Part shown: positions 8,452-18,035 of the stretch, in pieces
Layout: each line of letters begins with the position of its first letter
How positions within the stretch are numbered: the first letter of the stretch is position 1
DNA from: Cellvibrionales bacterium UBA4495
Lineage (GTDB): Bacteria; Pseudomonadota; Gammaproteobacteria; Pseudomonadales; Porticoccaceae
Direction: 5' to 3'
Assembly: GCA_002388905.1 (NCBI GenBank)
Contig: DGNJ01000095.1
Span: forward strand, 306 to 20,316
DNA length: 20,011 nucleotides
Notes under the pieces: model-generated
What the model saw: only the letters and a program-made list of their open reading frames with translations
Databases searched by the model: none
Told to the model about the DNA's origin: nothing
Position numbers and translations under genes: made by a program

Positions 8452-9450
8452 TCAGCCCGCGCTGAAAAGCTTGGCCCGCACGGTTTCCCGGTACTTGCCG
8501 GGGGTGGTCTGGAAATGTCGCTGGAAAAGCCGGGTGAAGTAGGCGATATCCTGGTAGCCGCTCAAAGCCGCCACTTCCTGAATGCTCAGGTTGGTTTTCT
8601 GGAGCAGGTCCCGGGCGTTCTTGAGACGCAGTTCCTGCAGGTAGGCGATGGGTGTGGTGCCCAGCGCGGCCTTGAAACGGCGGCCTAGGGTGCGCACGCT
8701 CATGTCGAACTGCCGGGCCAGTTGGGGAATCGACACCTTGCGGGCGAAATTATCCTGCAACCAGATTTGAGCCTGGAGTATATCCTCGTCGGGATGGAAC
8801 TCCACCTGCTCGGCAAAGTAGCGGCCGGGTTCGAACGTGCCCCGGATTTCGTGGAAAAAATTTCTTTCGACATTGTTGGCGACCGGCCGGCCGAACCATC
8901 GGTAGATAATGTGAACCATCAGTTCCGCCAATGTATTGACGCTGGCGGCGCAGTAGAGGCTGCCTGCCTGGGTAATGAAGTATTGCCGTTTCAGGTCGAC
9001 AAGGGGGTAATCCTTCTGGAACTGGTCGAAATAGTGCCAGTGGGTGGTGGCGGGCTTGCCGTCCAGCAGGCCGGCGGCGGCGGGAAAGCAGACGCCGGTC
9101 CCCACGGCGGTGATGATGGCGCCGCCGCGATGCTGCCGGCGCAGCCAGTCGCGGTGGTCGGGGTTGCGGCGGATCGCCCGGCGGGGATTGCGCCACTGGC
9201 CCGGTACGTGCACCAGGTCCAGCTGCGGCGCTGTTTCCATGGCGGTCGAGGGTGTCAGTCTGAAACCGGAGGCGGAATCGACGGGCGTGGCTCCCCGGCT
9301 CAGGGTCATGATATCGAGGGCCGGCGCCTCTGCCCGGAGTCCCTGTGCAGTCGCTTCCGCCGTGCGCAGCATCTCGATGGGCAGGGTGGCGCTTGTTGAA
9401 AGCAGGTTGTCGCAAAGCAGGATGCCCACCCGCTTGATAGAGGTGTTCAT
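8452..9450 (-). CDS. GlxA-type transcriptional regulator (DJ-1/PfpI-like domain plus AraC DNA-binding domain)
   Basis: The 332-residue protein joins an N-terminal DJ-1/PfpI-like domain (about 7-175) to a C-terminal AraC double helix-turn-helix (about 223-325). The second part is clear: IPQLARQFDMSVRTLGRRFK, then IQEVAALSGYQDIAYFTRLFQRHF and the TTPGKYR end. In related regulators the first domain binds a small molecule. The nucleophile elbow, usually a CTG triplet, reads VGTGVCF (116-122), so the usual cysteine is Gly118 and the domain should bind rather than catalyse. The gene is divergent from fabY across a 169-base gap. AraC-type regulators of this class often control the divergent neighbour or themselves, which makes fabY a candidate target, although the effector is unknown. 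Confidence 0.88.
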   Translation of the reverse strand: MNTSIKRVGILLCDNLLSTSATLPIEMLRTAEATAQGLRAEAPALDIMTLSRGATPVDSASGFRLTPSTAMETAPQLDLVHVPGQWRNPRRAIRRNPDHRDWLRRQHRGGAIITAVGTGVCFPAAAGLLDGKPATTHWHYFDQFQKDYPLVDLKRQYFITQAGSLYCAASVNTLAELMVHIIYRWFGRPVANNVERNFFHEIRGTFEPGRYFAEQVEFHPDEDILQAQIWLQDNFARKVSIPQLARQFDMSVRTLGRRFKAALGTTPIAYLQELRLKNARDLLQKTNLSIQEVAALSGYQDIAYFTRLFQRHFQTTPGKYRETVRAKLFSAG

Positions 9451-9619: not shown

Positions 9620-11464
9620 ATGACAGCACTACCGGTCATAGTCGGTTACGGCGGCATCAATGCCGCCGGACGAAGCTCGTTCGATCAGGGCTATCGGCGC
9701 ATGGTCCTGGAAAGCCTGTCGGCCGCCGACCGGGACAAGACCCTGTCCGGCCTGGCTGCGCTGATGAACCTGGAAGGGGAATCCGCGGGGCTTGCGGAGC
9801 GCGTAACCCTGGGTACCCTGATCCGCCGGATCGAGGACAGCGCGTTCGATCCCGATGCGGCGCCCTGGAACAGTGCCCTGTCCGTATCGGCCGCGGACGG
9901 CGGCATGTCTTTCCGCCTACGACGGCGCAACCTGCCGGAGACGCTCCCCGACAACTGGCAGGTCCGTGAGCTGGATGGCGGCAAGGTGGAAGTGACCATT
10001 CACGGCCAGCAACGCATGTACGTGCCCGATTGCAAACCCTTTCCCGTCAAGGCCGCCGGCCAGCTGCCCACCGGCTTCGATCCGGGCGCCCTGTACAACT
10101 CCCGCTCCCAGCCCCGGGGCCTGCACATGGCGGTAATGGGTGCTTCCGATGCTCTCAACGCCATGGGTATCGACTGGCAGCACATCTGTCAGCAGGTGCG
10201 CCCCGATCAGGTGGGCATGTACGCCAGCAGCATTTTCGGCCAGTTGAGCGAGGAAGGGCTGGGCGGCATGCTCAAGGCCCGCTGGCTGGGTGCCCGGCCC
10301 ACTTCCAAGCAGGTGCCCATGGGCCTCAATACCATGCCCGCGGACTTCATCAACGCCTATGTCTTGGGCAGCATCGGCCACACCGAGGCCGTTGCCGGCG
10401 CCTGCGCCACCTACCTGTACAATTTGCATGCGGCGGTCAGGGACATTACCGCCGGGCGGCGGCGGGTCGCCATTGTCGGCACCAGCGAAGCCCCGGTGAC
10501 GGTGGAGCTCCTGGAGGGTTTCATGAACATGAGTGCTCTGGCCACCGACGAGGCCATGGCCAGGCTCGATGGTATCGACAATCCCGATCCCCGCCGCTAC
10601 AGCCGCCCTTTCTGCGGCAATGCCGGCTTTGTCATGGGAGAATCGAGCCAGTACACCATCCTCATGGACGACAGCCTTGCCGTGTCGCTGGGCGCGGATA
10701 TCCACGGCGCCGTGCCCGCTGTCCATATCAATGCCGACGGCATCAAGAAATCCATTTCCAGTCCGGGACCCGGCAATTACCTCACCTTTGCCAGATCCGT
10801 GGCCCTGGCCCGGTCCATACTGGGGTCCGAGGCGGTGCAGCGTCATAGTCTGGTCATGGCCCATGGCTCCAGTACGCCCCAGAACAGGGTGACGGAATCC
10901 CGGATTTTTGACCGGGTGGCCGAAGCCTTCGATATTACCGACTGGCCGGTTTGCGCCGTCAAAGCCTACCTCGGCCATACCATGGCCAGTGCCAGCGGCG
11001 ACCAGCTGGTGGCCGCCATTGGTGCCATGCGTCACGGCCTGGTACCGGGCATCAAGACCGCCGACCGCCTCGCCGACGATATTTACGGCGACCGCCTGGC
11101 GATTCCCCTGGGCGACCTGGATCGGCGCGACCGCTCTCTGGAGGCCGCCTTCATCAACGCCAAGGGCTTCGGCGGCAACAATGCCACCGGGGTGCTGCTC
11201 TCGCCGGCGCGAACCGAAGCCATGCTCGAGCGCCGCCACAGCCATGTCTGGCGCGAGTACTGCGCCCGCCGGGAACATACCCGGGACACCGCCCTGACTT
11301 ACGAAACAGCGGCGGACCGGGGCGATTTGCGCGTCAACTACCGTTTCGGCGACGGCCTGATCGATGAAGACAGCGTGACAATCGGCCGGGACAAAGTCGA
11401 GGTGCCGGGCTTTGGTCACCCCTTGTCTCTGGATCTGCCCAATCCCTACGACGATATGTGCTGA
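9620..11464 (+). CDS. fabY: Beta-ketoacyl-ACP synthase, FabY-like (initiating condensing enzyme)
   Basis: The 614-residue product resembles FabY of Pseudomonas aeruginosa, which condenses acetyl-CoA with malonyl-ACP to begin fatty-acid synthesis in place of FabH. The shared opening (VIVGYGGINAAGRSSF) and middle (GLNTMPADFINAYVLGS) are distinctive for this long branch of thiolase-fold synthases. The active-site triad is visible as Cys262 in GACATYLYN, His415 in AHGSSTP and His453 in YLGHTMASASGD, with a GFGGNNA loop at 516-522. It is a cytoplasmic enzyme. The ATG follows AAGGGACGGGAG, a strong ribosome site. A GlxA-type regulator is divergent upstream. An AT-rich hairpin lies just after the stop, and speA begins 163 bases later on the same strand. 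The C-terminal region after about 535 is less conserved by eye. Confidence 0.9.
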   Translation: MTALPVIVGYGGINAAGRSSFDQGYRRMVLESLSAADRDKTLSGLAALMNLEGESAGLAERVTLGTLIRRIEDSAFDPDAAPWNSALSVSAADGGMSFRLRRRNLPETLPDNWQVRELDGGKVEVTIHGQQRMYVPDCKPFPVKAAGQLPTGFDPGALYNSRSQPRGLHMAVMGASDALNAMGIDWQHICQQVRPDQVGMYASSIFGQLSEEGLGGMLKARWLGARPTSKQVPMGLNTMPADFINAYVLGSIGHTEAVAGACATYLYNLHAAVRDITAGRRRVAIVGTSEAPVTVELLEGFMNMSALATDEAMARLDGIDNPDPRRYSRPFCGNAGFVMGESSQYTILMDDSLAVSLGADIHGAVPAVHINADGIKKSISSPGPGNYLTFARSVALARSILGSEAVQRHSLVMAHGSSTPQNRVTESRIFDRVAEAFDITDWPVCAVKAYLGHTMASASGDQLVAAIGAMRHGLVPGIKTADRLADDIYGDRLAIPLGDLDRRDRSLEAAFINAKGFGGNNATGVLLSPARTEAMLERRHSHVWREYCARREHTRDTALTYETAADRGDLRVNYRFGDGLIDEDSVTIGRDKVEVPGFGHPLSLDLPNPYDDMC

Positions 11465-11475
11465 CGGTCCCGGCC

Positions 11476-11500
11476 GATAAAAACCCTTTTATCTGTTTTT
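11476..11500 (+). terminator. Possible weak terminator after fabY
   Basis: GATAAAA (11476-11482), a four-base loop and TTTTATC (11487-11493) form a perfect 7-base stem followed by TGTTTTT. The T-run suits an intrinsic terminator, but the stem has only one G-C pair, so it is at best weak and could let transcription reach speA. Confidence 0.3.
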
Positions 11501-11613
11501 GGAAACAGCGAAAATAGCGCTCTCTCGATCGCTGCTCCGGCGCCGGGCGGTGTCCTTGACCCGGGCCCGGTCGCGTTCCGGCGGTGATCTGTCTTTCAGC
11601 ACGCACAGCGCAT

Positions 11614-11630
11614 TAAGGACAACGTCATTG
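11614..11630 (+). promoter_or_regulatory. Ribosome binding site that sets a TTG start for speA
   Basis: TAAGGA at 11614-11619 lies eight bases before TTG 11628-11630, which is in frame with speA and gives an N-terminus (MTDSAVDDNW) of normal family length. No ATG or GTG in this frame lies close to a comparable site. Confidence 0.65.
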
Positions 11631-13547
11631 ACTGATTCGGCCGTTGACGACAACTGGACCTCCGAGGAATCGGCGGACTACTACGCGATTCGCGAATGGG
11701 GTGCGGGACTTTTCGATGTCTCGCCCCAGGGGGAGGTCACGGTAACGGTTGCCGGCAAGGACAAAGCCACCGCGGTATCGTTGCTCGATATCGCCGAGGG
11801 TCTCCAGCAGCGGGACTTGGCCATGCCGGTACTGCTGCGGGTGGAAAATCACCTGGATGCCGCTATCTCGCAGATCAATGAAACCTTCGCCAATGCCATC
11901 GGGGTAACCGGCTACCGCGGGGTTTACCGGGGCGTGTTTCCCATCAAGGTCAACCAGCAAAGCCACATCATCGAGGAGATCGCCCGCTTCGGCGAGCGCT
12001 ATCACCATGGTCTCGAGGCGGGCAGCAAGGCGGAGCTGCTGGTGGCCATGTCCACCCTGCGGGACCGGGAAAGCCTCATTGTCTGTAACGGTTACAAGGA
12101 TGCCGAGTTTATCGACCTGGGCCTGCGCGCCCGGCAGTTGGGCATGCCCTGTTTCTTCGTGGTGGAGACCCCCGAGGAAATGTCCCTGATCATCGAGCGC
12201 AGCCAGCTGCTGGATGTGGAGCCCCTGATAGGCGTGCGCCTGAAACTGGGCACCAAGGTGGACGGTCACTGGAGCGAGGACAGCGGCGACCGCAGCCTGT
12301 TCGGCCTTAACACCCAGCAACTGATCGAGGCGGTGGACCGGCTCAAGGGCGCGGGCATGCTCCACTGCCTGCGCCTGTTGCACTTCCACCTGGGCTCCCA
12401 GATTCCCAATATCCAGAATATCCGGGCCGGCATTCTCGAGGCCTGCCGCTACTACATCGACCTGATCGAGGAAGGGGCGCCCCTGGGATACCTGGACCTG
12501 GGCGGGGGCCTGGCGGTGGATTACGACGGCTCCCGGGGCGGCAGCATGCAGAGTCGCAACTACACCCTGGAGGAATACTGCGTCGACGTGGTGGAGGCCA
12601 TTCAGGAGTGCCTCGATCCGGAACAGGTCCCCCACCCGACCATCATCACCGAGTCGGGTCGGGCCACCGTGGCCTACACCTCGGTGCTGCTTTTCAACAT
12701 TCTCAACGTCAGCGATTTCGAGCCGGTCAGCCTGCCGGAAAAGCTGCCGGAGGGTGCACCCGAGCAGGTTCGCAACCTGGCCGCGCTATTCGACAACATC
12801 TCCCTGAAAAACCTCCAGGAGTGCTACAACGACGCCGTCTATTACCGGGAATCCCTGCGCGAACACTTTCGCCGGGGCGAGGTCAACCTGCGCATGCGCT
12901 CCGTGGGGGAAAACCTGTGCCTGGCGGTACTCCAGAAAATTTCCAGATTGATCCCCGAGCTGGATCGGGTGCCGGTTCGCCTCGAGAATCTCACCGAGCA
13001 ACTGGCGGATATCTACTACGGCAATTTCAGCGTCTTCCAGTCCCTGCCGGATTTCTGGGCCATCGGCCAGAGCTTCCCGGTGATGCCCATTCACCGGCTC
13101 AATGAACGTCCCACCCGGGAGGCGGTGATCGCCGATCTGACCTGCGATTGCGACGGTAAAATCGACCGGTTCGCCCACCCGGAAGGTGAGAAGCGCACCC
13201 TGCTGCTGCATCCTCTCGAGAAAGACCGGGAGTATCTGCTGGCGGTCTTCCTCGTCGGTGCGTATCAGGAGACCCTGGGGGACCTGCACAATCTGTTCGG
13301 CGATACCAATGTTGCCAGTGTCCGCATCAATGGTGACGGCAACTTCGATTTCGTCCACGAACTGCACGGCGATACCATTGCCGATGTGCTCAGCTATGTG
13401 GAATACGAGCCGGATTACCTGTTCCGGCGCTTCCGGGAGACGGCGGAGGACGCGGTCCGCGACGGCCGGATCTCGGTGGCCGAACGCCAGAAGATGCTCG
13501 GCGCTTTCAACGAGAGCCTGCGCGGCTACACTTACTTCGAACGCTAA
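11628..13547 (+). CDS. speA: Biosynthetic arginine decarboxylase
   Basis: SpeA removes CO2 from arginine to give agmatine, the entry to polyamines. The TTG start gives 639 residues, near the usual 630-660. The fold-III pyridoxal-phosphate barrel shows Lys107 in FPIKVNQ, then GLEAGSKAEL, LLHFHLGSQ (251-258), the phosphate loop LGGGLAVDYDGSR (291-303) and ITESGRA. The C-terminal domain supplies the second half of the dimer active site through LTCDCDGKID (Cys506), followed by AYQETLGDLHNLFGDT and the closing GYTYFER. The frame stays open for 43 more codons upstream (from a TTG at 11499), coding an arginine-rich stretch with no good ribosome site. A dehydrogenase of the carboxynorspermidine type follows 27 bases later and is almost surely in the same transcript. 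Confidence 0.95.
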   Translation: MTDSAVDDNWTSEESADYYAIREWGAGLFDVSPQGEVTVTVAGKDKATAVSLLDIAEGLQQRDLAMPVLLRVENHLDAAISQINETFANAIGVTGYRGVYRGVFPIKVNQQSHIIEEIARFGERYHHGLEAGSKAELLVAMSTLRDRESLIVCNGYKDAEFIDLGLRARQLGMPCFFVVETPEEMSLIIERSQLLDVEPLIGVRLKLGTKVDGHWSEDSGDRSLFGLNTQQLIEAVDRLKGAGMLHCLRLLHFHLGSQIPNIQNIRAGILEACRYYIDLIEEGAPLGYLDLGGGLAVDYDGSRGGSMQSRNYTLEEYCVDVVEAIQECLDPEQVPHPTIITESGRATVAYTSVLLFNILNVSDFEPVSLPEKLPEGAPEQVRNLAALFDNISLKNLQECYNDAVYYRESLREHFRRGEVNLRMRSVGENLCLAVLQKISRLIPELDRVPVRLENLTEQLADIYYGNFSVFQSLPDFWAIGQSFPVMPIHRLNERPTREAVIADLTCDCDGKIDRFAHPEGEKRTLLLHPLEKDREYLLAVFLVGAYQETLGDLHNLFGDTNVASVRINGDGNFDFVHELHGDTIADVLSYVEYEPDYLFRRFRETAEDAVRDGRISVAERQKMLGAFNESLRGYTYFER

Positions 13548-13574
13548 ATCCTAAACCCGAGCGGGAGCTTAACC

Positions 13575-14771
13575 ATGTCCAAAGTGGTCATTATCGGCGC
13601 CGGCGGTGTCGGCGGCGTGGTCACCCACAAGTGCGCCCAGTTGCCGGATGTCTTTCAGGAGATCGTGCTGGCCAGCCGCACCGAATCCAAGTGCCGTGCC
13701 ATCGCCGAGCAGGTGCCCAGGGCCATTCGTACCGCGCCCATCGATGCCGACAATGTACCCGAACTCTCCGCCTTTCTCGCCTCGGAGAAGCCTGATCTGG
13801 TGATCAACGTGGCTCTGCCCTACCAGGACCTGCACATCATGGACGCCTGCCTCAATGCCGGCGTCCATTACCTGGATACCGCCAACTACGAACCGCCGGA
13901 TACCGCCAGGTTCGAATACAGTTGGCAGTGGGCCTACCGGGAGAAGTTTGAAAAAGCCGGTCTCACGGCCCTTCTTGGTTCCGGCTTCGATCCCGGCGCC
14001 ACCAACGTCTTTACCGCCTACCTGGCCAGGCACTATTTCGACGAGATCCATACCCTCGATATCATCGACGTCAATGGCGGCGAGCACGGCTATCCCTTTG
14101 CGACCAATTTCAATCCGGAGATCAATATCCGGGAAGTCACCGCCGAATGCCGGCATTGGGAAGACGGCCGGTTTGTTGCCACCCCGGCCATGTCCACAAG
14201 GCAATCCTTCGCCTGTCCGGAGGGCGTGGGCACATACAATATCTACCGCATGTATCACGAGGAACTGGAATCCCTGGCCCAGAACTTCCCCAGTCTCAAG
14301 AAGGCCCAGTTCTGGATGAGTTTCGGCGACAGTTACCTGAAACACCTCGAAGTGCTGCAGAACGTGGGCATGACCGGTATCGAGCCGGTGGCATTCGAGG
14401 GCCGGGAGATTGTCCCTATCCAGTTTCTGAAAGCCCTGCTGCCGGACCCCGCCACCCTGGGACCCCGCACCCGGGGAAAAACCTGCATCGGCTGCGTGGT
14501 CACCGGCGTCAAGGACGGCAAAGAGAAAACCGCCTATGTCTACAATATCAAGGATCATCAGGACTGTTATCAGGAGGTGAAGTCCCAGGCCATTTCCTAC
14601 ACCACCGGCGTTCCCGCCATGATCGGTGCCAAGCTGATACTGGAGGGGAAATGGCGGCGGCCGGGGGTCTGGAATATGGAGCAGATGGACCCGGATCCCT
14701 TCATGGAGGACATGAACAAACACGGGCTGCCCTGGACAGTGATTGAGGATCCTGGGTTCAATTTGCTTTAA
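13575..14771 (+). CDS. Carboxynorspermidine/carboxyspermidine synthase-type dehydrogenase (saccharopine dehydrogenase family)
   Basis: The 398-residue protein starts with a Rossmann nucleotide site (KVVIIGAGGVGG, 3-14) followed by ASRTESKC and the family segments VINVALPYQDLHIMDACLNAGVHYLDTANYE and GFDPGATNVFTAYL. These mark the carboxynorspermidine dehydrogenase branch. Such enzymes reductively join aspartate beta-semialdehyde to a diamine with NADPH, giving a carboxylated polyamine that NspC decarboxylates. GGGAG lies seven bases before the ATG. The position directly after speA, with nspC 720 bases away, fits polyamine synthesis. The acceptor could be diaminopropane, putrescine or agmatine; sequence alone does not decide. 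True saccharopine (lysine) dehydrogenase is less likely because of the neighbours. Confidence 0.85.
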   Translation: MSKVVIIGAGGVGGVVTHKCAQLPDVFQEIVLASRTESKCRAIAEQVPRAIRTAPIDADNVPELSAFLASEKPDLVINVALPYQDLHIMDACLNAGVHYLDTANYEPPDTARFEYSWQWAYREKFEKAGLTALLGSGFDPGATNVFTAYLARHYFDEIHTLDIIDVNGGEHGYPFATNFNPEINIREVTAECRHWEDGRFVATPAMSTRQSFACPEGVGTYNIYRMYHEELESLAQNFPSLKKAQFWMSFGDSYLKHLEVLQNVGMTGIEPVAFEGREIVPIQFLKALLPDPATLGPRTRGKTCIGCVVTGVKDGKEKTAYVYNIKDHQDCYQEVKSQAISYTTGVPAMIGAKLILEGKWRRPGVWNMEQMDPDPFMEDMNKHGLPWTVIEDPGFNLL

Positions 14772-14819
14772 CCAGCATCCTCAGGCGGGGAAGTGGGCGC
14801 TCACTATGTAGCGCTTTGG

Positions 14820-15290
14820 CTAGTGATAGCGATGCCCTGCCGGGGCTTTCTCCCCTTCCTCGTCGGGTAGCAGGAAATCGAGCTGCTTGAGCTCGCCGGC
14901 GAGCTGGGTCATGGCTTCCTGGGCGGTGGCGGTGAAGAGGGCGAACTGGGCCTCGGTCATGCCGGCGCCGGTCAGGAAGGTGGCACCGGCGATCAGTTGC
15001 GGCATGGCATCGTCGACCACGTCCGGAAACAACTTGAGGATCGGGTAGTTTGCGTTCAGGTGGCCAAGGTCCGCCGCAATGGGCAACAGGGCCGTGGGAC
15101 GGATAAGGTACTCGGTGCTGATCAGCAGGCCCCACTCCTCCACCAGCAGGCGGCTTTCCACCACGCCCTCCAGACCCTGGAGTTCACTCAGGTGCAGGCC
15201 GTGGCACTGCCCGCACAGGTAGTGATCGACGCCGGCGTTGTGCATCCAGCTTTTGATGGTTGCGGGGTCCAGGGGTGACTTTTCAATCAT
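14820..15290 (-). CDS. ybjN: YbjN domain-containing protein
   Basis: The 156-residue product aligns by eye along its whole length with E. coli YbjN (158 residues), with matching stretches such as CGQCHGLHLSELQGLEGVV, RPTALLPIAADLGHLNANYP and MTEAQFALF. YbjN is a cytoplasmic protein of the type III secretion chaperone-like fold; its overexpression in E. coli affects motility, biofilm and stress responses, but its molecular role is not settled. A Cys-x2-Cys pair near residues 26-29 is present, as in E. coli. The gene runs opposite to the flanking polyamine genes and separates the dehydrogenase from its decarboxylase. It converges on the dehydrogenase gene with 48 bases between; a 5-base stem (GCGCT/AGCGC, 14797-14814) followed by TTT there is too weak to call a terminator. 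Confidence 0.88.
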   Translation of the reverse strand: MIEKSPLDPATIKSWMHNAGVDHYLCGQCHGLHLSELQGLEGVVESRLLVEEWGLLISTEYLIRPTALLPIAADLGHLNANYPILKLFPDVVDDAMPQLIAGATFLTGAGMTEAQFALFTATAQEAMTQLAGELKQLDFLLPDEEGEKAPAGHRYH

Positions 15291-15330
15291 GGTGGCGATC
15301 CGTTTGGGGTGCTGACGATTCAGGCCGCGA

Positions 15331-15359
15331 ATTTTACGCCTTTAGCGACCGCGGCCCAA
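15331..15359 (-). promoter_or_regulatory. Putative ybjN promoter with overlapping dyad
   Basis: On the minus strand TTGGGC (15354-15359) is 17 bases from TAAAAT (15331-15336), about 41 bases before the ybjN start. A 7-base inverted repeat, GGCCGCG (15323-15329) and CGCGGCC (15350-15356), brackets the -10 and touches the -35, so a regulator bound there would block the promoter. The symmetry is exact but GC-rich. Confidence 0.4.
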
Positions 15360-15408
15360 ATCTATTTGTGGCTAACTGCTATTTGCTTTAGCGGCGCAAT
15401 GAGCCGTC

Positions 15409-15414
15409 TATAAT
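15409..15414 (+). promoter_or_regulatory. Consensus -10 element (TATAAT) ahead of nspC
   Basis: A perfect TATAAT sits in the divergent ybjN-nspC region; the best -35 at 16 bases is a poor TTTAGC (15387-15392). Transcription would begin near 15421 and leave a leader of about 70 bases. The element overlaps the ATG at 15413, which therefore cannot be the translation start, so a shorter nspC reading is needed. Confidence 0.5.
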
Positions 15415-15437
15415 GGCGGCGCTATTGCAGGGAGAGG

Positions 15438-15457
15438 TTGTCCACGGAGAGGACAAT
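15438..15457 (+). promoter_or_regulatory. Leader hairpin holding the ribosome site of the nspC leader ORF
   Basis: TTGTCC (15438-15443) pairs exactly with GGACAA (15451-15456) around a seven-base loop, ACGGAGA; a G-U pair extends it to 15457. The loop and 3' arm contain the GGAGAGG ribosome site (15446-15452) and the A of the leader ATG. A second GGAGAGG at 15431-15437, fifteen bases earlier, is left free. Confidence 0.35.
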
Positions 15458-15494
15458 GGCTTCCATCCAATCGACAGCAGAGGTTTCCGTTTGA
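15456..15494 (+). CDS. Putative 12-residue leader peptide overlapping the nspC start
   Basis: An ATG at 15456, three bases after GGAGAGG, opens a short frame encoding MASIQSTAEVSV and ending at TGA 15492-15494. That TGA overlaps the TTG start of nspC as TTGA. A ribosome ending here would be placed to restart on nspC, the usual geometry of translational coupling. The ribosome site is better than the one directly before the nspC TTG (AGAGG at 15479-15483). There is no family to compare, so the support is layout only. It may instead be a chance frame. Confidence 0.4.
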   Translation: MASIQSTAEVSV

Positions 15495-16669
15495 AAGCAA
15501 TCAGTTTTCAAAATTTTGACCCCGCCCGTGTCCCTTCTCCGTGTTTTGTGGTGGATGTCGCCGCGGTGGAGGAAAACCTGAAAACCCTCAACCGGGTGCA
15601 GGAGGCCAGCGGTGCGAAAATACTGGCGGCCCTGAAGGCGTTTTCCCTCTGGCGGCTCGGGCCTCTCACGGGCCGGTACCTGTCCGGCACCTGTGCCAGC
15701 GGTTTGCATGAGGCCCGGCTGGGGCATGAGGAATACGGCGGCGAGGTGCATGTCTTTTCCGCTGCTTACAGTGAGGCGGATTTGCGTCGGCTTCTGGCGT
15801 TTGCTGACCACCTGGTGTTCAACTCCATCGAGCAATGGTTGCGTTTCCGGCCGTTGGCCCGAGAGGCAAAAGCGCGCCGTCCCGAACTGCACTTCGGCCT
15901 GCGCATCAACCCGGAGCATTCGGAGGGCACAGTGCCCCTTTACGACCCCTGCGCGCCGGGCTCGCGGCTGGGCATCCCCCTTTCGGAATTCCAGCGGCAC
16001 GAGGGCAGCGACTTTCTCGACGGCATTACCGGCCTGCATTTCCACACGCTCTGTGAGCAGGATTTCCCGCCGCTGGAGAGAACCCTGAAAGCGGTGGAGG
16101 AAAAATTCGCGGACTACCTGGCGCGCATGGAGTGGGTGAATTTTGGCGGCGGCCACCATATCACCCGACCCGACTACCAGGTGGAGCGACTGATCGACGC
16201 TGTCCGTTCCTTCGCTTCCCGTTATGGCGTGCAGGTTTACCTGGAGCCCGGCGAGGCGGTGGCGATCCACACCGGCGTGCTGGTGGCGGAAGTGCTCGAC
16301 ACCCCGTTCAGCAGTGTGCACCAGGCGATTCTCGACACCTCGGCCACCTGCCATATGCCCGATACCCTGGAAATGCCCTACCGGCCCGATATCTTCGGTG
16401 CCGGGGAACCCGGCGAACAGGCCCATACCTATCGGCTGGGCGGCATGACCTGCCTGGCCGGTGACGTAATCGGCGACTACAGCTTTACCGAGCCCCTCCT
16501 TCCGGGCCGGCGCCTGATGTTCGACGACATGGCCCATTACACCATGGTCAAGACCAGTACTTTCAACGGCGTGGGCCTGCCCGCCATCGCCCTGTGGGAT
16601 TCCCGTACCGGCGAGGTGGAAGTAATCCGGGAGTTCGGTTACGCCGACTTCCGCAATCGCCTCTCCTGA
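15491..16669 (+). CDS. nspC: Carboxynorspermidine decarboxylase-like enzyme
   Basis: NspC-type enzymes decarboxylate carboxynorspermidine or carboxyspermidine to the free polyamine. The TTG start at 15491 gives 392 residues and puts the first conserved segment (PSPCFVVD, 15-22) where the family has it. The longer reading from ATG 15413 is ruled out if the TATAAT there is the promoter. The pyridoxal-phosphate Lys49 lies in ALKAFS, followed by SGTCASGLHEARLG, GLHFHTLCE, FGGGHHIT (phosphate loop, 218-225), YLEPGEAVA (250-258), GMTCLAGD (Cys321) and KTSTFNG. These are hallmarks of the alanine-racemase-fold decarboxylases nearest to NspC. Its partner dehydrogenase is 720 bases upstream beyond ybjN. 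The start codon, the hairpin and the leader ORF suggest translational control. Confidence 0.88.
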   Translation: MKAISFQNFDPARVPSPCFVVDVAAVEENLKTLNRVQEASGAKILAALKAFSLWRLGPLTGRYLSGTCASGLHEARLGHEEYGGEVHVFSAAYSEADLRRLLAFADHLVFNSIEQWLRFRPLAREAKARRPELHFGLRINPEHSEGTVPLYDPCAPGSRLGIPLSEFQRHEGSDFLDGITGLHFHTLCEQDFPPLERTLKAVEEKFADYLARMEWVNFGGGHHITRPDYQVERLIDAVRSFASRYGVQVYLEPGEAVAIHTGVLVAEVLDTPFSSVHQAILDTSATCHMPDTLEMPYRPDIFGAGEPGEQAHTYRLGGMTCLAGDVIGDYSFTEPLLPGRRLMFDDMAHYTMVKTSTFNGVGLPAIALWDSRTGEVEVIREFGYADFRNRLS

Positions 16670-16699: not shown

Positions 16700-16713
16700 T
16701 TGATTTGCATCAA
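16700..16713 (+). promoter_or_regulatory. FNR/ANR/DNR-type binding site upstream of the P450 gene
   Basis: TTGAT, four bases, ATCAA is an exact match to the FNR-family consensus. Its centre lies between 16706 and 16707, about 43 bases before the transcription start predicted from the TATAAT at 16738, close to the -41.5 position of class II activated promoters. The weak -35 sequence under it fits activator dependence. Confidence 0.6.
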
Positions 16714-16722
16714 CATATAAAA

Positions 16723-16749
16723 AGTTGCATATGTTTCTATAATGCAACT
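16723..16749 (+). promoter_or_regulatory. P450 promoter: TATAAT inside an 8-base inverted repeat
   Basis: AGTTGCAT (16723-16730) and ATGCAACT (16742-16749) are exact inverted copies separated by 11 bases. The -10 element TATAAT (16738-16743) lies within and against the second arm. A third TTGCAT occurs at 16705-16710 inside the FNR-type box, 20 bases before the one at 16725. A repressor bound to the dyad would cover the start site. The leader then runs about 68 bases to the ATG, which follows a full AGGAGGT at 16805-16811. Confidence 0.5.
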
Positions 16750-16817: not shown

Positions 16818-18035
16818 ATGAGCGCCGAAGCCCAAAACCAGCAGGATTTTGTCAAGTTCGATCCTTTTTCCACGGAGTTTCGCTCGGACCCAGCCGCTTA
16901 TCATAAGCAGCTACTGAATCATTCGCCTGGCTTTATGGTCATGGAGGGCGATGTTCCTTCCGCCTATGTGGCCAAATTCGACCAGTGCCTCGAGGTGCTG
17001 GGTGACTGGCAGCGCTTTTCCAGCGTCAAGCCGCCCAACCTGCCGGGTATGCAGCGCGTGGATTTTTTCAACGGCCAGCCGGTGATGAACTACTCGGATC
17101 CCCCCGAGCACGATCGCCGCCGTCGTGTGGTGAATCCGGCGTTCTCGCCGGGCCGGGTCCGGCAGTTGTCCGAGGCGACGGATCGGATCATTGATCAGTT
17201 GCTGACGCCGATCGAGCGGGGGCAGGCTTTTGACGGCTTCAAGGAAGTGGCCAACCCGCTGGCGGTCAGGGTGCTGTTCGATGAATTCCTGGGAATCCCC
17301 CCGGAAGACCAGGGCATCTTTTTCGAATTCGCCTCGACTTTCTATATGCTCGACGATTTGAAGCCCGGCGACCCGAAGCCCCCGGAATACCTGGCGGCCT
17401 GGGCAAAGGGCGAACAAGTCTGCCGCCGGTTGCTGAACGAGGCCAGGGAAGGCGGGAAGAAGAATGTGCTGGGCCTGATTGCCGCGGCCTCCGAGAGCGG
17501 TGATCTCTCCGACGCCGAAATGATGGCGATGGTCTGCGTACTGTTTACCGGCGGGGTTCCCACGGTCAGCGCCATGTCGGCTTCCGCCCTGCATTACCTC
17601 GCGGCAAACCCGGATATTGCCGAGCGGATCCGCCAGGATGAATCACTGGCCAAGCCGTTTGTGGAAGAGACGTTCCGCATCGATGCGCCGGTGACCCTGG
17701 TCATGCGCTTCTGCACGGAGGATACGAAAATCGGCGACCAGGTGATCAACAAGGGGATGCCGGTTTATACCATGATCTCGGTGGCCAACCGGGATCCGGA
17801 TCAATACGACAACCCGACGGAATTCAATATCGACCGGGAAAAGATGCAGCACCTGGCCTTCGGCAAGGGGACGCATGTCTGTGTCGGCAACTCCATCTCC
17901 CGCATGGTAATCCCCAAGCTGGTGGCCGTGGCGGTGAAGCGGTTCCCGGACCTCAAGGCAGATCCCTCGAAGGCAGGTTCCTGGTTGACCACGCCGCGCT
18001 CCCGGCACCGGGACGCCGTGCCACTGATCGCGTAG
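16818..18035 (+). CDS. Cytochrome P450 with an altered oxygen-activation motif
   Basis: This soluble 405-residue haem-thiolate protein is of bacterial class I size. The haem loop FGKGTHVCVG supplies the iron ligand Cys355. The K-helix EETFR gives Glu284 and Arg287, and the C-helix PEHDRRRRV has the usual His98 and Arg102. The I helix reads TGGVPTVSA (244-252); against P450cam (VGGLDTVVN) the acid Asp251 becomes Pro248 while the Thr is kept as Thr249. The acid normally delivers protons for O2 cleavage, so a standard hydroxylation cycle is doubtful. No ferredoxin or reductase gene is next to it. The gene stands alone behind its own promoter with an FNR-type site and a dyad. The substrate is unknown; peroxide-, NO- or rearrangement-type chemistry is possible. 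Confidence 0.92.
   Translation: MSAEAQNQQDFVKFDPFSTEFRSDPAAYHKQLLNHSPGFMVMEGDVPSAYVAKFDQCLEVLGDWQRFSSVKPPNLPGMQRVDFFNGQPVMNYSDPPEHDRRRRVVNPAFSPGRVRQLSEATDRIIDQLLTPIERGQAFDGFKEVANPLAVRVLFDEFLGIPPEDQGIFFEFASTFYMLDDLKPGDPKPPEYLAAWAKGEQVCRRLLNEAREGGKKNVLGLIAAASESGDLSDAEMMAMVCVLFTGGVPTVSAMSASALHYLAANPDIAERIRQDESLAKPFVEETFRIDAPVTLVMRFCTEDTKIGDQVINKGMPVYTMISVANRDPDQYDNPTEFNIDREKMQHLAFGKGTHVCVGNSISRMVIPKLVAVAVKRFPDLKADPSKAGSWLTTPRSRHRDAVPLIA

Follow-up and report, generated by a model that had tools for sequence, protein, structure and literature searches.

A solitary cytochrome P450 from a family lacking the I-helix acid, with an FNR-type box and a putative TetR-type operator in its promoter

The window, a 20,011-nucleotide stretch of contig DGNJ01000095.1 (positions 306 to 20,316, forward strand) from Cellvibrionales bacterium UBA4495 (Porticoccaceae), contains a complete open reading frame for a cytochrome P450 that stands alone downstream of nspC (carboxynorspermidine decarboxylase). 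The features of the gene and of the 148-bp intergenic region before it are as follows.

16700-16713, + strand: perfect FNR/ANR-type box TTGATTTGCATCAA, an exact match to TTGAT-N4-ATCAA
16723-16749, no strand assigned: dyad AGTTGCAT-N11-ATGCAACT, a putative TetR-family operator with perfect 8-bp arms that overlaps the -10
16738-16743, + strand: TATAAT, the likely -10 by sequence and spacing, inside the dyad
16818-18035, + strand: cytochrome P450 of 405 aa (open reading frame translation, Pfam, AlphaFold2)

Just upstream of the P450, positions 11499-16669 of the window form a polyamine block encoding a biosynthetic arginine decarboxylase, a carboxynorspermidine synthase-like protein that scores below its NCBIfam cut-off, and the carboxynorspermidine decarboxylase. 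Before this block, 9620-11464 encodes a protein of 614 aa that resembles beta-ketoacyl synthases, its matches to FabF being weak and partial; divergent from this gene, 8452-9450 encodes a regulator of the AraC family that has a DJ-1/PfpI domain.

The window protein has the hallmarks of the P450 superfamily. It scored 107.4 bits against the Pfam p450 model (cut-off 22.8), its K helix reads EETFR (intact ExxR), its haem loop reads FGKGTHVCVG with the haem-thiolate ligand Cys355 intact, and its AlphaFold2 model (mean pLDDT 91) has an ordinary P450 fold, with 19-28% identity to the chains listed among Foldseek matches. Pfam found p450 alone on the 405-aa protein, with no fused flavodoxin domain. 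The departure lies in the I helix, VCVLFTGGVPTVSAM, where residues 245-249 read GGVPT. Proton delivery by an acid-alcohol pair is the textbook route of O2 activation by P450s, and P450cam has Asp at the position of Pro248; in the window protein the Asp/Glu that canonically precedes the I-helix Thr is absent and the Thr is retained. An earlier sequence-only reading of this locus had likewise described an I helix without its acid beside an intact Thr, ExxR and haem Cys, and the motifs read here bear that out.

A protein search returned 114 relatives of the window P450. The family was defined as aligned sequences of at least 380 aa and at least 38% identity to the window protein, giving 98 members, including the window protein itself, a host paralogue, and P0002, a protein from another genome (G069) that was entered once; sequences shorter than 380 aa were left out of both the tree and the count. 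None of the 98 carries an acid at the position of Pro248, which is filled by Ser (39), Pro (28), Thr (15), Gly (12), Ala (3) or Asn (1), and the following residue is Thr in 91, Ser in four, Ala in two and Asn in one. This differs from ordinary bacterial P450 monooxygenases such as CYP142, CYP126A1, CYP199A4, CYP125 and CalO2, and 28 P450s outside the family, including 20 from the host, have Asp (16), Glu (10) or Gly (2) at the acid position. Five of the excluded short sequences are family fragments that span the site (Ser, Ser, Pro, Ser and Ser); two others have Glu. In the midpoint-rooted FastTree tree, family members group in a single clade (support 0.79), and all 14 sequences closest to the window protein (P0001-P0014) carry Pro. 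These sequences indicate that the acid loss is old and that Pro is one of several fillings. The host genome (3.38 Mb in 132 contigs, 92.8% complete) gave 25 P450 matches, and the I helix could be read in every one (L049 and L052 by eye): Asp/Glu is present in 21 and absent in four, namely the window P450 and its paralogue on contig C105 (both GGVPT), L003 (GGLGT) and L004 (AGLGS).

Family members are rare in the genomes searched, in searches whose E-value limits were strict and in which few candidates were scored for each genome. They were found in two of 112 genomes of the taxonomic family (E 1e-80; the host and G069) and two of 390 in an order sample (E 1e-80; the host and G140), while only the host itself was recovered in a class sample of 369 (E 1e-80) and a phylum sample of 398 (E 1e-70). 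Within the family of G140, represented by two genomes, the homologue occurs in G140 alone; a plasmid search gave a single match, at 28%, and a search of genome contigs returned a single locus, the G069 contig. Promoters could thus be compared at three other loci. The host paralogue is 66% identical to the window P450 and lies in an operon of TonB receptor, SDR and P450 genes followed by an MFS gene. G069 belongs to the same taxonomic family as the host and a different genus, and its homologue (GGVPT; 72% identical to the window P450, 76% to the paralogue) is encoded in a TonB-SDR-P450-CMD operon. The G140 homologue is 50% identical, reads GGVST and has the context CMD-SDR-P450.

The B-C loop is usually variable among P450s. 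In this family its mean conservation (residues 66-92) is 0.84 compared to 0.63 overall, a level that the stretch 290-298 also reaches. Lys71, Pro72, Arg80, Asp82, Phe84, Asn85, Asn91 and Tyr92 occur in 94-100% of members and in 0-19% of other P450s, a loop signature that separates the family from CYP142, CYP126A1, CYP199A4, CYP125 and CalO2; K71, D82, N85, N91 and Y92 are each conserved at 96-100%. Strong conservation of this first substrate-recognition region suggests that the family acts on a single conserved substrate. Judged by the same conservation, the loop residues are candidates for an alternative proton path. A bolder proposal, tentative and in our view rather doubtful, is that of a natural P450 family with at least 98 members in which the acid was lost, the site was refilled with Ser, Pro, Thr or Gly, proton delivery was taken over by an invariant network at the B-C loop (Asp82 together with Lys71, Asn85, Asn91, Tyr92 and Arg394), and one member newly came under oxygen control. 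Queries with three members and a profile found no close solved structure for the family, and in a limited literature search no paper was recognised as describing an acid-less, Thr-keeping bacterial P450 family. Such a family counts as a variant within a known class of enzyme, with a predicted chemistry. Having lost the acid throughout while keeping the Thr, it offers a natural experiment on whether the acid is dispensable.

The dyad across the -10, which the sequence-only reading had missed, connects the window promoter to the paralogue operon. Its core, GTTGCAT-N11-ATGCAAC (7-bp arms), occurs exactly at two places in the 3.38-Mb genome, where about 0.014 would be expected. The second, C105:14693-14717, lies upstream of the paralogue operon, 47 bp from the likely start codon of its first gene, which encodes the TonB receptor; on the dyad's other side a TetR-family gene (L023:14793-15635) reads away from it. 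The same intergenic region holds a further dyad with three mismatches, which is not significant alone, as 33 of 200 shuffles reached two matches. At G069, a TetR protein 71% identical to the C105 TetR is encoded divergently from the TonB-SDR-P450-CMD operon, and the region between them contains two similar dyads, both with N bases and mismatches and one with a 12-base gap; at G140 no comparable dyad with fewer than three mismatches was found in the stretch scanned. The TetR-dyad-operon arrangement is thus present at two of the three other loci. In an alignment of the window, paralogue and G069 promoters, the dyad of the window and the upstream dyads of the other two have in common a sequence resembling AAAAAGTTGCA and a right arm resembling a -10; the FNR box is confined to the window promoter. 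An inverted repeat common to TetR-adjacent and target promoters is one mark of a TetR regulon, and one is found here. The dyad is most likely a TetR operator, which would make the window P450 a member of the operon's regulon and subject to binding and repression by the regulator. Because the exact dyad is common to the window and the TetR-TonB-SDR-P450 locus, with a similar arrangement in G069, the gene most likely belongs to a TetR-controlled, substrate-induced catabolic regulon. The common operator also provides a practical handle, since the ligand of the candidate TetR should reveal the substrate of the pathway.

The exact TTGAT-N4-ATCAA box reported by the sequence-only reading was confirmed at 16700-16713. 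It is the one match within the window; none of 100 dinucleotide shuffles contained one, and when the 148-bp intergenic region was shuffled 20,000 times at the mononucleotide level, a perfect box arose in 6 cases. The box lies 24 bp from TATAAT, so that, with a transcription start 7 nt past the -10, its centre would fall at about -43.5 rather than near -42 as had been proposed. Between 16600 and 16900 no site was found with a -35 and a -10 both near consensus. The host encodes FNR (291 bits against an NCBIfam cut-off of 228; Cys cluster present, helix reading VETVSR), so that both the box and the genomic FNR by which an FNR/ANR promoter is recognised are present. The promoter therefore resembles class II FNR/ANR promoters (ccoN, oprG/ompW) in its exact box, in the lack of a detected -35 and in the presence of an encoded FNR. 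It differs in spacing and in having a TetR-type dyad over the -10: class II boxes are centred at about -41.5, 22 bp before the -10, and the host's own ccoN promoter has TTGATGCAAGTCAA (one mismatch) 22 bp from GATAAT, which places the window box about 2 bp further out, relative to a predicted start site. The oprG gene is of the ompW type. In the host, two one-mismatch FNR boxes (L056:9900-10120, contig C59) precede an ompW-like gene that is convergent with fnr and matches the OmpW model below its cut-off. For Pseudomonas, Anr boxes are reported in front of both ccoN and oprG (PMC6588701). Low-oxygen control by FNR/ANR, as proposed from the sequence alone, is thus plausible given the encoded FNR and the boxed ccoN and ompW-like genes; the 24-bp gap is the feature that fits it less well.

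The strongest competing account holds that the box is a chance palindrome and that the TetR-type dyad alone controls the promoter. Genome-wide there are four perfect boxes where about two are expected from a first-order model whose sample included loci picked for their boxes, and the 24-bp gap and the boxless promoters of the relatives point the same way. Against this, a perfect box is rare in shuffles of the intergenic region, it occupies the place of a -35 where none was found, and FNR is encoded by the host. Boxes with at most one mismatch number 101 in the genome compared to 11 for the reversed pattern, a weak control since that pattern contains TAG. We regard a chance origin as possible but unlikely, and consider it quite likely from the sequence that the box is functional and was added onto a TetR-controlled promoter. 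Among the other three perfect boxes, one lies between enoyl-CoA hydratase and flavin monooxygenase genes (C63:12987-13000; L013/L027), one upstream of a Rieske oxygenase gene (C71:9872-9885; L014/L028) and the last ahead of a gene that by eye is leuB-like. Three of the four (window, C63 and C71) thus adjoin catabolic oxygenases, and tuning of oxygenases to low oxygen may be a recurring pattern in this host, but the genome is oxygenase-rich and four boxes are few.

The sequence-only reading had further linked the loss of the acid to the FNR box, and had proposed that the Pro be examined for conservation together with the box. The two did not travel together. The paralogue and the G069 homologue both read GGVPT, and neither has a box with up to two mismatches, whether within 400 nt of the start of the P450 gene or ahead of the operon's first gene; the upstream stretches read for the G140 homologue likewise contain no such box. 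A scan over 300 nt upstream of 21 other host P450 open reading frames, which left out L049 and L052, gave a single Anr-like box with one mismatch, TTGATGTGGGTCAA at -179 of L041, a P450 that bears the Asp; L003 has a two-mismatch box upstream. A coupling of Pro with the box was therefore rejected. Because none of the 98 family members is acidic and Pro-bearing relatives are boxless, the acid loss is a trait of the family and is not tied to the window promoter.

These observations are best accommodated by a model in which the TonB receptor-SDR-P450 operon holds one copy of the P450 and the window gene is a second, solitary copy. A single TetR-family repressor would control both copies, from an operator that overlaps the -10 at the window, and would be released once the pathway substrate enters via the TonB receptor; the FNR box on the window copy would then probably raise its expression at low oxygen. 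The enzyme would be soluble, with electrons expected from a ferredoxin, and its reaction would most likely be the oxidation of one conserved substrate with O2, as the oxidation step of a substrate-induced uptake-and-degradation pathway. In place of the missing acid, protons might be delivered via the kept Thr and water, or via an invariant B-C-loop residue such as Asp82. We judge this reading as a whole, a TetR-controlled, substrate-induced oxidation enzyme with added low-oxygen tuning by FNR, to be on balance the probable one. The solitary, FNR-boxed copy would then be a test case for whether an oxygenase can usefully be induced at low oxygen.

On the chemistry, the best rival is a P450 of the XplA (CYP177A1) kind that works reductively instead of activating O2 and that FNR would induce for use at low oxygen. 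In published work, XplA appears to have lost the Asp/Glu-Thr motif, acts reductively with or without O2 and has a flavodoxin domain fused at its N-terminus (PMC8081977). Its departure from the motif and its activity in the presence or absence of oxygen make XplA the best chemical parallel, and the lost acid and the exact FNR box of the window gene would suit such an enzyme. The XplA haem domain ranked 49 among the Foldseek matches listed for the window model. The window P450, however, keeps the Thr linked to O2 activation, as do 91 of the 98 family members, has no flavodoxin domain and lies in a different gene context; the box is absent from the relatives read, and the SDR in the operon would suit oxidation. 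We give such a reductive enzyme a small chance.

A natural H2O2 peroxygenase, for which the acid would be unnecessary, has a slim chance. In CYP152 an Arg-Pro replaces the acid-alcohol pair. The likeness is that CYP152 peroxygenases (OleT, P450-BS-beta) are reported to lack this pair (PMC10988616), but GGVPT has no Arg and keeps its Thr, and the window protein scored 19.1 bits against the CYP152 CypC model NF053744, far below the cut-off of 600; assignment to CYP152 was rejected.

A role in NO metabolism, among the possibilities raised earlier, that of an NO reductase or NO-responsive enzyme like fungal P450nor (CYP55) under DNR or FNR, is highly improbable: P450nor also lacks an acid before the I-helix Thr and an FNR-type box is present, but the relatives sit in bacterial TonB-SDR-P450 operons, the host has norC and norB, and no DNR-like helix was seen among seven Crp/FNR matches. 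These two genes were named from strong PDB matches (L068, C123:5000-18000), NCBIfam giving no NorB or NorC match, and are followed by genes that we take to be norQ/norD-like. No box with at most one mismatch was found in the 13-kb stretch around them, a nearby multicopper oxidase (L068:9152-10192) scores below the Cu-nitrite-reductase cut-off, and nirS was not found in the host genome at 92.8% completeness. The Crp/FNR helix model gave seven host matches in this 92.8% complete genome, the seventh below cut-off in a protein that is MarR-like by eye, and ExxSR occurs in FNR alone; because norB and norC are present and only FNR has this helix, NO reduction by the window P450 is unlikely. P450nor was absent among the Foldseek matches listed, which is uninformative on membership, and it is set apart here by gene context and the host's norCB rather than by sequence comparison.

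The two remaining host P450s without an I-helix acid, L003 (G000:C104:30607-31743) and L004 (G000:C75:18402-19442), are about 30% identical to the window P450; given these two, P450s without the acid may extend beyond the family of 98.
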